64,000 nucleotides of DNA, taken from Candidatus Kapaibacterium sp. (GTDB lineage: Bacteria; Bacteroidota; Ignavibacteria; Kapaibacteriales; UBA2268). The notes below the pieces were generated by a model. It did no database searches, was not told the origin of the DNA, and worked only from the letters and a program-made list of their open reading frames with translations. A program made the position numbers and the translations under genes. The DNA lies in NCBI GenBank assembly GCA_937927515.1, contig CALBDO010000032.1, positions 1 to 64,000 on the forward strand, given 5' to 3'. Positions 34,309 to 39,594 of this stretch are shown here, one piece after another; positions within the stretch are counted from its first letter, which is position 1; the number at the start of each line of letters is the position of its first letter.

Positions 34309-34465
34309 TTGCACGCTGTGAGTAGTTTATACGCTTAAAATTCGTTCATTATTTTCGAAATTGATATCAGATACAATATTAATTAGGTTCGTGTCTTTGT
34401 TTCCTAATCTTTACATCAGTTTTAACTCATTTGATTTATAATACCATAATCCGAATTTTAATTCT

Positions 34466-34473
34466 TATTTTTG
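34466..34473 (+). promoter_or_regulatory. Candidate -7 promoter box for NnrS-like gene (TATTTTTG)
   Basis: TATTTTTG fits TAnnTTTG, 26 nt before the ATG at 34500. The 185-bp gap after the PASTA gene shows no other clear signal. No -33 TTG at proper distance. Confidence 0.35.
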
Positions 34474-34499
34474 TGATTTAGTCATAGGAATTTTTGAAT

Positions 34500-35540
34500 A
34501 TGTTTTCGGCTAATTTCTTTCGCTTTCGAATTTTCATAATTATACTAGCATTTTTTTCTCTGTTTATTGGGCTAATAATTGGGGTAACTAGGATTGGTAT
34601 TTGGTCTCTTTTCAGTTATCTTCAGCCGCACCATTCTGCTATACTTGTTGGTTCTTTCTTTGGGACTTTAATTACACTTGAGAGAGTAATAACCATAAAA
34701 CGCATTTGGACTATTTTCCTTCCGATTCTCAATGGCAGTAGTATTTTGCTGTTTTTGTTAAACATGCCCCATATTGCTCAAATTTCATTAATTCTTGGAG
34801 GATTTGTTTTAACTGCTATTTACCTTTCTTTTTTTATCCAACGTAAGAGTTTGATAAATTTCATGTTTGTGGTTTCTGGCATTATTTACATTTGGAGCTT
34901 TTGGTTTTACACAACGTCTCTTATTGAAAGTATGTATGCCTGGGTTCTTTTTTTTCTTTTTACCATTATCGCTGAGCGACTCGAGCTGACTGAGTATTTA
35001 AATGTTCCTGATTTTTTTAAGAGGTTAATAGCTGGGTCTCTTATTACTTTAGTTGTCATATTGCTTGCTAAAAATTACATCCAATTTAAATTAATTTTTG
35101 GTATAATTTCTCTTGTAACTTCTACTTTAATGATGCGTTACGATATCGCGGTGAAGAATATTCTTTCTAAAGAACCTCATCGATTTCGTGGTTGGGCGAT
35201 TTTGGTTGGTTACATTTGGTTGATAGTTTTTGCCCTATCCCATTTGTTTGATTTACCTAATGTCGATATTTTGATTCATAGTTTTTTCTTAGGATTTGTA
35301 ATGAATATGGTTTTTGCTCATGCTGGGATTATTCTCCCGGTAGTTCTTAGAAAATCGGTGGAAATGAATCCCAAATATACTTACTCCATTTGGATAACGT
35401 TCCAGATTATATTGTTGATGCGTTTCTTTACCTTTTTATTAAACCACTCTCTATTCAAATTTTTTATTATTGTGAACTTTTTTATCATTTTAGCTTTTTT
35501 CCTGCAACAAATCTTAGTGATGAGGAACAGGGCAGATTAA
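34500..35540 (+). CDS. NnrS-like polytopic membrane protein
   Basis: About 346 residues with ten to twelve hydrophobic helices. Recognisable segments are HHSAILVGSFFGTLITLERV (near residue 43), AERLELTEYL (near 160) and FFLGFVMNMVFAHAGIILP (near 260), which resemble NnrS and its uncharacterised relatives, haem/copper membrane proteins linked to nitric-oxide stress and denitrification. The histidines in these segments are candidate metal ligands. No denitrification gene is in the window, so the NO link is by family only. ATG at 34500 is preferred to an in-frame TTG at 34494. The following barrel-protein gene is in the same direction, 211 bp away. Confidence 0.55.
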   Translation: MFSANFFRFRIFIIILAFFSLFIGLIIGVTRIGIWSLFSYLQPHHSAILVGSFFGTLITLERVITIKRIWTIFLPILNGSSILLFLLNMPHIAQISLILGGFVLTAIYLSFFIQRKSLINFMFVVSGIIYIWSFWFYTTSLIESMYAWVLFFLFTIIAERLELTEYLNVPDFFKRLIAGSLITLVVILLAKNYIQFKLIFGIISLVTSTLMMRYDIAVKNILSKEPHRFRGWAILVGYIWLIVFALSHLFDLPNVDILIHSFFLGFVMNMVFAHAGIILPVVLRKSVEMNPKYTYSIWITFQIILLMRFFTFLLNHSLFKFFIIVNFFIILAFFLQQILVMRNRAD

Positions 35541-35751
35541 AATAATTTTGAACCATTCTTTACTTTACAAACGATAAACATTTCAAAGTCTTTCACAGCG
35601 TTTCTTAGTCCATACAACTTTTAAAATTATTTTAAATTAGAATTTGAAAGTACCTTGTTACCAACAACTGGATTACAGATAATTTTAATTATTTTGTTTA
35701 TACTAAATTAATATTTAAGTTGCATTTACTTTTTTATAAGAAGGAGGTAAA

Positions 35752-36465
35752 ATGAAAAAAATACTGATAATTAACCTATGTGCCTTTTTAATTGTGTTTA
35801 ATTTCAAAGCACATTCAGACATGCGTTCGTATTTATGGACTTACGAGTATATGATAATGGAACCTGGACAAGCAGAGCTCGAACATTATCTAACTTTGAA
35901 AGCACCTAACTGGCATAATATTAAAGGTCAGACAATAGTAGAGCATAAGTTTGAGATTGAAGTAGGTATGACAAAACATTTTGATTTTTCAATCTATCAA
36001 AACTTTCTCCAACATCCAGGTAAAACTTTAACATATGCTGGTTTCGACTTGCGAGCACGGTTCTTGATTGGAGAAAAGAATCAGTTTCCGCTCGACCCCT
36101 TAATTTATCTTGAAATTGGCAATAATGCTGAGCTTTCGAAACCAAAGTTCGAAGGCAAATTGATTCTTGCTAAAGATATTGGAAATTTCAACATTGCTTT
36201 GAATTCAATTTTCGAGTTCGAAAATGATGGAACTATTTGGGAGTTTGTTCCTTCATATTCTCTCGGATTAAGATATGAATTTACAAAGTTGTTTCGGTTT
36301 GGAATAGAATTCAAAGGAGACAGAGATGCTCAATATATTGGTGGGGTGATTTCTCATGGGAGAGATAACCTTTGGATTGCTGCTGGACCAATGTTAATGT
36401 ACAGCAGGAATTCCAAGGGCAAAAGTGAATTCCTGTTTCGCACAATAATAGGTTTAGGATTGTAA
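35752..36465 (+). CDS. Putative outer-membrane beta-barrel protein of unknown function
   Basis: 237 residues with a signal peptide (about 1-22, ending FNFKAHSD) and a sequence of alternating polar/hydrophobic strands. EPGQAELEHYLTLKAP near the start, then GMTKHFDFSIYQNFLQ, GLRYEFTKLFRFGIEFKG and a terminal FLFRTIIGLGL suggest a small barrel of roughly ten to twelve strands. I recognise no named family. It has the strongest ribosome-binding site in the window, AAGGAGGT (35741-35748), 3 nt before the ATG, which suggests high translation. The 211-bp upstream region contains no other gene. It may be functionally tied to the NnrS-like gene before it. Confidence 0.7.
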   Translation: MKKILIINLCAFLIVFNFKAHSDMRSYLWTYEYMIMEPGQAELEHYLTLKAPNWHNIKGQTIVEHKFEIEVGMTKHFDFSIYQNFLQHPGKTLTYAGFDLRARFLIGEKNQFPLDPLIYLEIGNNAELSKPKFEGKLILAKDIGNFNIALNSIFEFENDGTIWEFVPSYSLGLRYEFTKLFRFGIEFKGDRDAQYIGGVISHGRDNLWIAAGPMLMYSRNSKGKSEFLFRTIIGLGL

Positions 36466-36624
36466 TGGTATTGGAAGAACCTTGAGGACTGTCTTTAACC
36501 ATTGCAACAATAGAGTATTGTGAAAAGATGCATCGAGCGAAAATATGGTGTATCAGATTAAAGTTGCCAAACCGTAAACCTTTAATCTTTGAATAAGATA
36601 GCGACAAAAATACTTTATTGACAC

Positions 36625-37290
36625 CTAATCACACGGTAGACCCAACTTTCTTAAGTAACTGCAAGGTGATTTTGGTGGTGGTGTTTGGTTTGGTATTTTT
36701 TTTTCATTATCTGAACACCTACGAAAATCTGATAAAGTTCTCTTGGCAACATCTTTACACCCTCGTTCCTCGGAACCGTATCTAATTTCAAAACCATTTA
36801 CTCGGCATTCATTATCGAAAAGAGGTGTGATAACAATTTGCTCTGGTTTCAAATTTGGCGAGACTTCTATTCTTGGAACAGAAAAAGCGCCTATTCTTTT
36901 TATTATCTGGCACTTAGATGTCAAGACAACTTTAGAGAAATCTCTATCAACAAGTCTAATTGTAACTTCCTTGGTTTCCAGATTCGTTTCAAAGTCGAAA
37001 GTTGCCCTGGTAAAATCAACTTCATGGAGTAAAATTTCGACTGTTTCTCCATTTTTAAATGTATAGCTTTGTCCGATTTTTGTAAACGTGATTCTTTTTG
37101 TAGGAAAACCAGAGACTGCCGTGGTAATATTACCTTCGATATTGGTTATCTTTACAGTGTCGTAAATTATCTCCGTAATAGTTGGGTGTTCATCTCTTTT
37201 GATATAATCATCTGGATGAAATATTATGTCTAGTGTACGGCAGGAAACAAAGAAAAATATTATTAAAAAATAAATAGTTAAATATTTCAT
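36625..37290 (-). CDS. Cysteine-rich lipoprotein of unknown function
   Basis: Third gene of an unknown operon. The signal (MKYLTIYFLIIFFFVSC) ends in a lipobox-like VSC, so the protein is probably lipid-anchored. The mature part (about 200 residues) is beta-rich with a YTFKNGETVEILLHEVDFT segment and carries several further cysteines (TSKCQ, NECRV, ERGCKD, RRCSD) and a proline-rich tail QTPPPKSPCSYLRKLGLPCD. No family recognised. ATG at 37290 is chosen over an in-frame TTG at 37296. It begins 7 bp after the stop of the upstream gene, so it is almost surely co-transcribed with it. Confidence 0.7.
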   Translation of the reverse strand: MKYLTIYFLIIFFFVSCRTLDIIFHPDDYIKRDEHPTITEIIYDTVKITNIEGNITTAVSGFPTKRITFTKIGQSYTFKNGETVEILLHEVDFTRATFDFETNLETKEVTIRLVDRDFSKVVLTSKCQIIKRIGAFSVPRIEVSPNLKPEQIVITPLFDNECRVNGFEIRYGSEERGCKDVAKRTLSDFRRCSDNEKKIPNQTPPPKSPCSYLRKLGLPCD

Positions 37291-37297
37291 AAGCAAC

Positions 37298-38452
37298 CTA
37301 CTGATTTACTAACTTAATTCCGTAGTATTTTTCAAGTGCATTAAAGAAAGCCTTTTCGTAGGAATTCCTTGTTAATCCAGCAGGTAGGTAATGATAAATA
37401 AGAAGATTTTTTATTTTTTTCAAATTTTGCCAAAAGTCTGGGTCCAGGCTTGCTTTATCACCTTCTGGGGGAAATCTTCCAACGAAAATCCAATGTTTTT
37501 TTATTGAGTCGGGAAGTAGTGATAACTGATTATATGCCTGTTTAAGCAGAAAATTTACAGAAGTCCAATTTGCATCTTGGACACCCTGTATAATATTTAC
37601 AAAATCGGCACTATCTAATTTATCGTCAGTATAAATAAGATTTGTGTTGTTCTTAGGACCATCATTCCAAATAGTGAAAATAAATTGATGCCCCCCGGTT
37701 TCTTTAATAAATTCAAGAAAGTCACCACTTTGTTGATAATTTAATTTTTTGAAAAACATACCATAAAATCTTGGGAATTTAGCTTCGAAACATTCTCTTC
37801 TAATATCGGGGGCAATTGCAAATTCTTCAACTTTGTAGTTTTGTGAAGATTTCAAAGAGTCGATTATCTCGGCTTCCAGACCCTCCCTAGGATTTATTAA
37901 GTAAGAATATATTTGTTTTGGTTTTTGAGATTTGTTTTTGGTGAAATCTTTAATTCTTTCAAGTAGTTCTTTCTTTGAAGTATAATTATAGCAGTTTGGA
38001 AAAGAACCAGCCAAAATGAAAAGCAACCTCGGGTCCTCTGGTTCCTTTTCAATCTTTTTTAGAAAATCGATAAATAAATCATTAGTGCTTTCATTTGAAA
38101 GGCTAACATCTGTTGTGTCTGCAAATATCGAAAAGATTGTACGATAGATTGCCTCTCTCCAAATTTTTTCATTTTCACCTGGTTTTTGCCTAATTTCAAA
38201 TTCAGATTTTGGTAATTTGCTTGAGCCATAAATTTTAATTTGCAAGTAAGTCGGATTGTACTTTTCCATTATAAAAGTTGTTAATTCTCGAGAGAAAGCG
38301 CTGTCGTGTTCAGGATTTCTTAAATAATCGTTATTAAGGACTAAAATTTTAAGTTTAATTTCGGACGGGGGTTGGGATGAAAAATAAAAAAAGATAGCAT
38401 ACACTGCAAGTGCTAATAAAATGAGCAAACCAAATACCTTAATTTTGTTCAT
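37298..38452 (-). CDS. Membrane-anchored alpha/beta protein of unknown function (possible vWA-like fold)
   Basis: Second gene of the unknown operon. One N-terminal helix (about residues 5-25) anchors a roughly 355-residue soluble domain outside the cytoplasm. The domain has two halves with alternating hydrophobic strands and helices: IKLKILVLNND, RLLFILAGSFPNC, and later HQFIFTIWNDG and KKHWIFVGRFPPEG. This pattern resembles von Willebrand A or Rossmann-like folds, but no MIDAS motif is obvious, so the fold is a guess. GAGGAG lies 8 nt before the ATG at 38452. It overlaps the upstream membrane-protein gene by 14 bp, indicating coupled translation. Confidence 0.65.
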   Translation of the reverse strand: MNKIKVFGLLILLALAVYAIFFYFSSQPPSEIKLKILVLNNDYLRNPEHDSAFSRELTTFIMEKYNPTYLQIKIYGSSKLPKSEFEIRQKPGENEKIWREAIYRTIFSIFADTTDVSLSNESTNDLFIDFLKKIEKEPEDPRLLFILAGSFPNCYNYTSKKELLERIKDFTKNKSQKPKQIYSYLINPREGLEAEIIDSLKSSQNYKVEEFAIAPDIRRECFEAKFPRFYGMFFKKLNYQQSGDFLEFIKETGGHQFIFTIWNDGPKNNTNLIYTDDKLDSADFVNIIQGVQDANWTSVNFLLKQAYNQLSLLPDSIKKHWIFVGRFPPEGDKASLDPDFWQNLKKIKNLLIYHYLPAGLTRNSYEKAFFNALEKYYGIKLVNQ

Positions 38453-39221
38453 ATTTTTTCTCCTCAAAATTACTTTTTATTGGATTGATTTGACTTACAT
38501 CGTCGTAAATTCTTTTTAATCCATATGATTGCAAATTACTTTCAAATGAATTGTTAGAAATAGTACGAAAATGATTAAAAAGTTCTCTAATTTTCTTTTC
38601 GATTTCGTCCGGGTTATCCAGCAAAAAGCCAGCAACAATCAGGATTAATCCACCAAAGATGTAAAACAATCCTAACCCAGCGAAAGTTAATACTGAATAA
38701 ACAATGAAAATAAAAATTATTTGTGGCAAAAGTACTCTAACAAATTCCCATGTACTCAGGGGAAATACCCTGTTGCCAAAAGCATCCACAATTAGGTAGG
38801 AATCGTAAACATAAAATCCAAAAAGAATTAATTTTAACAAACCAAGGGATGTTAAGATAGGCCTAAAAATTTTACGTTGCAGTTCTCTTTTGTATGTGTT
38901 GGTGGACAATCCACCGCTAGCCAAAATAGCCATGGTAGCATCAAAAAGGGTAAAAATTAGTGCTAGCGATGAGGGAGGAACTCTAATAATCTTTGCAAGA
39001 TATTGTAGTGTTTGGTGCGAGACAAAAAAGTCGAACACAAGAACAATGGAACAAGCGATTCCATAGATGAGATAGGTTGCTTTTTTTTCAGAGAAAAATT
39101 CGTTGAACTCACTTTTTTTCTTCTCATATTTTTCTCTTGCTTTCCGAGCTTTAAGTAATTTTTCGTTTTTTTGAAGTATTTTGTCGCTAATTTCTCGTAA
39201 TTCTCGATAACTGTCTACCAT
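38439..39221 (-). CDS. Five-helix membrane protein with N-terminal coiled coil, unknown function
   Basis: First gene of the unknown operon, 260 residues. Residues 1-45 are charged and probably coiled-coil (LLKARKAREKYEKKKSEF). About five transmembrane helices follow, near 50-70, 80-100, 118-138, 150-172 and 176-196, including LIFTLFDATMAILASGG. The C-terminal 60 residues are soluble with NPDEIEKKIRELFNHF. I recognise no family. A well-formed TAnnTTTG promoter lies upstream. The overlap with the next gene and the shared direction of all three suggest a membrane complex, with this protein as the integral component. Confidence 0.65.
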   Translation of the reverse strand: MVDSYRELREISDKILQKNEKLLKARKAREKYEKKKSEFNEFFSEKKATYLIYGIACSIVLVFDFFVSHQTLQYLAKIIRVPPSSLALIFTLFDATMAILASGGLSTNTYKRELQRKIFRPILTSLGLLKLILFGFYVYDSYLIVDAFGNRVFPLSTWEFVRVLLPQIIFIFIVYSVLTFAGLGLFYIFGGLILIVAGFLLDNPDEIEKKIRELFNHFRTISNNSFESNLQSYGLKRIYDDVSQINPIKSNFEEKKYEQN

Positions 39222-39594
39222 AATTGTGCCTTTATTTACACATAATTATTTTTTATGTCTAAAACAAAAATATAAAAAAAATCTTTTCCTTGCAAGTTAA
39301 CGAATTTATATTTATTAATTATTGAGGCAGTTCTTCTAAAAATTTATTAAAGCTTGGTGATTATTATAATTTCAAGCTAATAGGTAAATTTATGTTTAAT
39401 AAACTAAACCAAATTTTCTAAATGAATTAATGTATTTAGATTAAGAGCATATTTAGCATTATCCAAGAACACATTTAAAAGTTAAATAAAGAAGAAGGTA
39501 TTAAAATGAGTTTAAGAAATAATTAGGTTAATTATCCATTTCATTTCTATTTCAAATACTGTAAAATAAGGTCGCAGTTCAATTGTAATTTAAA
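39222..39594. other. 373-bp A/T-rich gap without a convincing gene
   Basis: Holds the promoter of the unknown three-gene operon (39265-39295). A six-residue reading frame (ATG 39505 to TAG 39525) follows an SD-like AAGAAGGT on the plus strand but has no plausible product. An 18-bp perfect palindrome, TTGTAATTTAAATTACAA (39583-39600), covers the lpxD stop codon and could help end transcription on the minus strand. No tRNA or other structured RNA was seen. Confidence 0.6.
39265..39295 (-). promoter_or_regulatory. Promoter of the unknown three-gene operon (TTG-N20-TATTTTTG)
   Basis: On the minus strand a TTG (39293-39295) is followed after 20 nt by TATTTTTG (39265-39272). Both the boxes and the spacing agree with the Bacteroidota -33/-7 promoter model. 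The start codon at 39221 is 43 nt further. Among the boxes listed here it has the best -33 element. Confidence 0.5.

Follow-up and report, generated by a model that had tools for sequence, protein, structure and literature searches.

A three-gene unit of the Kapaibacteriales with a predicted tandem vWA-fold protein, a predicted lipoprotein and exchangeable partners

Here we show that three adjacent genes of a Candidatus Kapaibacterium genome, referred to below as A, B and C, form a true unit that recurs in the order Kapaibacteriales, and that B and C are the core of this unit, with a partner that changes between loci. The predicted architecture of the proteins would fit a trans-envelope module, a lipoprotein-to-inner-membrane sensor with interchangeable outputs, a reading to which we give about an even chance of being right.

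Three undescribed families kept as a unit

The genes lie on the minus strand of the DNA that was analysed, a stretch of 64,000 nucleotides (the window). Gene A (38439–39221, 260 aa) was defined from its open reading frame (ORF), hydropathy and an alignment of ten A copies; gene B (37298–38452, 384 aa) from an ORF with a Shine-Dalgarno sequence, an alignment, an AlphaFold2 model and Foldseek searches; and gene C (36625–37290, 221 aa) from its ORF, a 22-sequence alignment and an AlphaFold2 model. B starts at the ATG at 38452, preceded by GAGGAG, and its stop ends at 37298; given this start, A and B overlap by 14 bp, and C begins at the ATG at 37290, 7 bp past the B stop. These ORF calls agree throughout with an earlier note on this DNA, which had described three minus-strand genes with the same coordinates, overlap and gap.

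The same note had singled out a promoter upstream of A. A promoter-like string of the Bacteroidota type, TTG-N20-TAnnTTTG, does sit at 39265–39295 on the minus strand, 44 bp 5' of A, but five such strings occur in the window against 2.2 expected, and 9 of 100 shuffles reach five, so the string is weak evidence and was dropped as a special feature. No terminator-like site was found for the A-B-C operon, and an Rfam search gave no match. None of the three proteins matches any Pfam, NCBIfam or PADLOC family, nor did their profiles match a PDB sequence, in keeping with the earlier view that no domain could be named from sequence; A, B and C are three undescribed families, absent from curated libraries.

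The search for homologues covered 60 relatives, 123 genomes from the order and 395 from the phylum. Strong matches to A (E < 1e-15) are present in 8 of the 123 genomes of the order, spread over four families (G000, G001, G002, G011, G021, G038, G055 and G057). B directly follows A in all eight, at a spacing of −14 to +9 bp, and C comes next on the same contig in seven. The eighth, G057, has an A-B pair (L131) that runs off its contig; since the last residues of B recur, nearly identical, before C on another contig (L122), A-B-C is probably complete there too. B itself is present in 11 of the 123 genomes: B-C stands at a contig edge in G016 and G018 and occurs without A in G453 (L110), and a remnant of B is found alone in G019 (L111). 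Homologues that never co-occur had been named beforehand as the outcome that would count against a complex, and the opposite was found, as every strong match to A is followed by B with C next. Across the eight genomes the pairwise distances of A and B are strongly correlated (r=0.96, permutation p 2e-4), the corresponding values being 0.59 for A-C and 0.63 for B-C. The proposal of an envelope complex holds as far as it describes three unrecognised, co-occurring proteins, whereas the evolutionary partner of C is B and not the whole operon.

Some genomes have further genes close to the unit. A gene for a DUF6804 small membrane protein and one for a vWA lipoprotein, the latter with a canonical domain that keeps DYSGS (MIDAS-like), lie upstream of A in G021 (L024:6494-7937). 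A DUF6804 gene comes after C in G018 (L019) as well, and, judged by similarity, after C in G016 (L021); inspection of protein starts by eye shows a HEPN/nucleotidyltransferase-like pair of small genes near B-C in the same two genomes (L019:2054-2739 and L021:2412-3100).

The chromosomal site of the unit differs within the genus. In all four congeners examined (G001–G004) the stop of lpxD lies 0–4 bp from a convergent PASTA gene, while in the window the two are separated by 5,286 bp (34309–39594, no strand assigned). The congeners lack this 5.3-kb block, which includes A-B-C and two further genes, at the junction. A-B-C is located elsewhere in the genomes of G001 and G002. The neighbour at 35752–36465 (237 aa) is conserved elsewhere in three congeners, its ortholog occupying yet another site, and the block also includes a gene for a 348-aa membrane protein (34494–35540). 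Different sites within one genus, together with the empty lpxD-PASTA junction, show that the A-B-C cassette was moved or gained within the genus. With C alone as query no homologue was found in viral contigs or plasmids, nor with B alone in phage records.

Predicted architecture of the three proteins

B consists of a single transmembrane (TM) helix (residues 6–24) followed by two tandem domains (about 31–210 and 228–383) that are predicted to adopt the vWA fold. The AlphaFold2 model, built from eight homologues (pLDDT 82.3), shows a single TM helix and two domains whose elements follow each other in the same way (beta-alpha-beta-beta-alpha-alpha-beta-alpha-beta-alpha-beta), that is, a six-stranded, Rossmann-like alpha/beta fold in vWA order. 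Nearly all informative top Foldseek matches in the PDB are vWA or I-domains (prob 0.8–0.99, with E < 0.001 for the top match only), among them collagen VI, integrins, Rpn10, inter-alpha-inhibitor and NorD, and the two halves of B align weakly to each other by profile (P 4e-4). The suggestion that B has two alpha/beta halves reminiscent of vWA folds is thus strengthened. The MIDAS (DxSxS plus an Asp after strand 4) was not found in the eight-sequence alignment, where the ends of strands 1 and 4 read NND/none and hydrophobic-GxFP at the places at which it would be expected. We therefore describe B as a predicted tandem vWA-fold protein without the metal site. Both halves resemble vWA domains such as the integrin I-domain, Rpn10 and collagen VI in fold and in strand and helix order; B differs from these, and from the vWA ternary conflict systems (PMC7159879), in the missing MIDAS, a predicted periplasmic location and the lack of a MoxR ATPase partner.

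C has the features of a lipoprotein, with a signal peptide whose hydrophobic helix is followed by a lipobox-like Cys17 that is kept in 22 of 22 homologues. It had been described as Cys-rich with repeated cysteines; it does have seven, the lipid cysteine included, but just Cys17, Cys127 and Cys178 are invariant across the wide family in the 22-sequence alignment. The invariance of the latter two makes a Cys127-Cys178 disulfide likely. The AlphaFold2 model comprises a beta-rich core (65–171, pLDDT mostly > 90), a C-terminal helix and a PC...LGLPC tail, and found no fold match in the PDB (best E 0.075, prob < 0.1), so that C appears to be a lipoprotein whose modelled beta core matches no known fold.

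The C family is wider than that of A, being present in 44 of the 123 genomes of the order. None was found outside the order in the sampled genomes, and a scan of GTDB genome contigs returned only Kapaibacterium, Ignavibacteria and other Bacteroidota-type MAGs. At five loci (L057:1190-7773, L060:4159-11052, L124, L125 and L127) distant lipoproteins with the C fold adjoin large beta-propeller proteins of the PD40 type that are partly similar to PorE/CHU_0125, possibly a conserved envelope cluster of this order. As these relatives occur without any B, C need not always be a sensor. In L122 a Trypsin_2 protein comes after C.

A has an N-terminal coiled coil, four TM helices and a cytoplasmic C-terminal tail. 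Five TM helices had been proposed; hydropathy gives four clear peaks, at about 49–67, 86–104, 118–136 and 164–182, and neither hydropathy nor the alignment gives a secure fifth. Past TM4 the hydrophobicity of homologues drops markedly, and this segment is more plausibly an amphipathic helix in the cytoplasm, so that A is better described as a 4-TM inner-membrane protein with one additional amphipathic or partly buried helix. All ten A copies, domains that otherwise have little in common, retain Asp64 (TM1), Asp94 (TM2), Lys130 (TM3) and Gly184. The ten include the two halves of each fused protein from G038 and G055, where A is a tandem duplication within one protein (594 and 525 aa), an explanation that removed these long proteins as candidates for a new domain. 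Weak matches of A to proteins of 550–2,076 aa (E 1e-3 to 1e-6) cover residues 4–96 only, that is, the coiled coil and one TM helix, and were ignored. The buried Asp-Asp-Lys triad suggests a charge-driven or charge-paired switch or an ion path, and A is perhaps an ion-conducting protein.

Exchangeable partners of the B-C pair

The gene immediately 5' of C was inspected in about 45 loci. Apart from those with a long B protein, about 20 loci have a single-TM B-like protein before C, the two genes usually overlapping by 4 bp; these proteins are often shorter than long B and share its layout. At eight loci (L059, L061, L116, L118, L119, L120, L123 and L131) the protein before C has a HEPN domain, a TM helix and a B-like part in that order. 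The R-N-x-x-x-H form of the HEPN RX4-6H motif, looked for in these relatives only, is intact in 8 of 8, while their Pfam HEPN matches are below the gathering cut-off or absent. L117 has a zinc-ribbon-like N-terminus, then a TM helix and a B-like part, with C next. In L126 (1117-3194, G027) a protein with sigma70 region 2 is followed by an anti-sigma-like TM protein (some 50 residues on the cytoplasmic side, one TM helix, then a periplasmic portion) and after this by C; region 2 scores above its cut-off (29.4 versus 24 bits) and region 4 below (18 versus 25.7), and this ECF-sigma/anti-sigma-like arrangement is that of a single locus. In L052 a kinase-AAA-TPR-GAF-cyclase protein of 1,771 aa is followed by a B-like gene, C and a second C.

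Three loci of one genus (L053, L054 and L055) carry a B-like gene and C convergent with a gene for a coiled-coil protein with a C-terminal TM helix, which in L053 is cut by the contig end. A RecQ-like helicase (1,260–1,305 aa) precedes the coiled-coil protein in L054 and L055, with a DUF559-like nuclease domain in that of L054, and L053 ends before the helicase. The spans concerned are L053:5823-8192, L054:2669-9182 and L055:1900-8662, and they might represent an unlisted defence locus. Matches of the L055 coiled-coil protein to ZorA are confined to its low-complexity tail and were set aside as coiled-coil similarity only.

How far the B-like domains are homologous to B was assessed with profiles. 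Run over 1,502 ORFs, an un-iterated profile of the second half of B recovered 6 of 21 independent B-like genes at E about 0.1 or better, with one false match, an ABC exporter, among about 1,460 other ORFs (Fisher p 2.5e-11). Iterated B HMM searches were discarded because an ABC exporter (L114:1-1186) entered at E 0.0098. The B profile matched the B-like domains of the HEPN type at P 3.4e-5 (prob 72). All 8 long B proteins carry a GxFP-type motif, as do 6 of 17 B-like groups and 6 of 248 background proteins, counts that are supporting only, as the motif was chosen after inspection. The B-like domains of L053-55, L061, L113, L120, L123, L126 and L131 have no significant sequence similarity to B and are assigned provisionally, by position, TM helix and layout.

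The earlier statement that no neighbour suggests a function holds in the window but not among relatives, where B-C is joined to HEPN domains, to a sigma/anti-sigma-like pair and to a kinase/cyclase, partners that suggest a part in signalling.

A candidate trans-envelope receptor and its alternatives

We propose that A, B and C would act as one trans-envelope module. C, as an outer-membrane or periplasm-facing lipoprotein, would sense a ligand or the condition of the envelope and touch the periplasmic tandem vWA-fold domains of B, and B, held in the inner membrane by its one helix, would relay the signal inward. With no more than about five residues of B in the cytoplasm, the output has to come from a different membrane protein, and A is the only output encoded in the window; its Asp-Asp-Lys triad would serve as a charge-driven or ion-conducting switch. 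In relatives the output driven by B-C would differ: in some a HEPN RNase or zinc-ribbon domain joined to B through the membrane, in others the anti-sigma-like part of a protein encoded beside a sigma factor, or a kinase/cyclase that is a protein of its own. An arrangement in which a lipoprotein goes with a periplasmic domain on one TM helix, while what lies on the cytoplasmic side varies, is that of a receptor.

Related arrangements are known. RcsF-IgaA and NlpE-CpxA are lipoprotein and inner-membrane sensor pairs like the proposed C-B pair. In QseG-QseE an outer-membrane lipoprotein activates an inner-membrane histidine kinase (PMC12691602); the likeness extends to the periplasmic receiving part of the inner-membrane protein and to co-encoding (qseEGF), whereas B would be a tandem vWA-fold protein and no kinase, its output with C varies by locus, and neither has a Pfam or NCBIfam match. 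Membrane-bound bacterial HEPN proteins, whose external domain has been proposed as a sensor, were described by Anantharaman et al. 2013 (section 15, PMC3710099). They share with the HEPN-bearing relatives a cytoplasmic HEPN RNase domain, one TM helix and an external domain, but have a WP-type TM domain, an alpha-helical domain or a Zn ribbon in place of a vWA fold accompanied by a lipoprotein gene. This likeness, and the analogy of the HEPN-TM-B layout with eukaryotic Ire1, concern the relatives; the window itself has no HEPN.

The partners also bring to mind anti-phage defence or abortive infection, in which C-B would sense envelope damage or phage contact and fire a toxic output, A being a membrane-disrupting effector and the HEPN or helicase-nuclease proteins its counterparts in relatives. 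Outputs that resemble conflict effectors (HEPN with intact RX4H, the RecQ-like helicase with its DUF559-like nuclease), combined with the patchy distribution of B and the differing chromosomal sites within one genus, make such a role conceivable, and Zorya, in which the envelope complex ZorAB is coupled to exchangeable cytoplasmic effectors (PMC11890865), provides a precedent to which the helicase and long coiled coil of one genus of relatives add a further likeness. We nevertheless consider it unlikely: A, B and C match no known anti-phage system in PADLOC, their neighbours are mostly housekeeping and not defence genes, an abortive effector would hardly take the form of a sigma/anti-sigma output, and the helicase genes run towards B-C and not in the same direction. 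The resemblance to Zorya stops short of a MotA/TolQ-type ZorA, an acidic residue in the TM helix of B and a peptidoglycan-binding domain, none of which was found.

The invariant charges buried in the TM helices of A would also suit an ion-driven envelope motor, in which A would draw on the proton motive force by way of its Asp/Lys triad and set B and C in motion in the manner of ExbBD-TonB, TolQR, MotAB, GldLM or ZorAB; the layout from the inner membrane to a lipoprotein, and the fusion of two A copies in some genomes, would agree with this. Against it, searches of Pfam, NCBIfam and PADLOC placed A in no MotA/TolQ/ExbB family and its helix layout differs, the TM segment of B (KIKVFGLLILLALAVYAIFFYF) has no acidic residue, here or in homologues, of the kind needed in ExbD/TolR/MotB/ZorB-type partners, and relatives have B-C without A or with cytoplasmic domains on B's own helix. 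On the first two of these grounds we hold a motor to be less likely than defence, and improbable overall. Least probable is an order-specific machine for envelope biogenesis, assembly or export without a sensor, for although distant C relatives adjoin PD40 beta-propellers partly like PorE/CHU_0125 and a Trypsin_2 protein follows C in L122, A-B-C is accessory and patchy in complete genomes, and HEPN, sigma-like and kinase/cyclase partners are unfit for a constant assembly machine.

The trans-envelope sensor thus described, joined as B-C is to different internal machines, suggests a kind of envelope alarm that has not been described. More tentatively, and with rather less confidence than we place in the module itself, B-C may be an undescribed, order-specific receptor that acts as a universal front end for an RNase, for sigma-factor release, for a kinase/cyclase or for a 4-TM ion-conducting output, one form being Ire1-like in layout. 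If B-C were such a common front end, envelope sensing would be coupled directly to RNA cleavage or ion flux, which is uncommon and would lie outside two-component systems. Three protein families that are absent from curated libraries nevertheless stay together as a unit in four taxonomic families of one order, and genes now labelled hypothetical gain names and testable residues.
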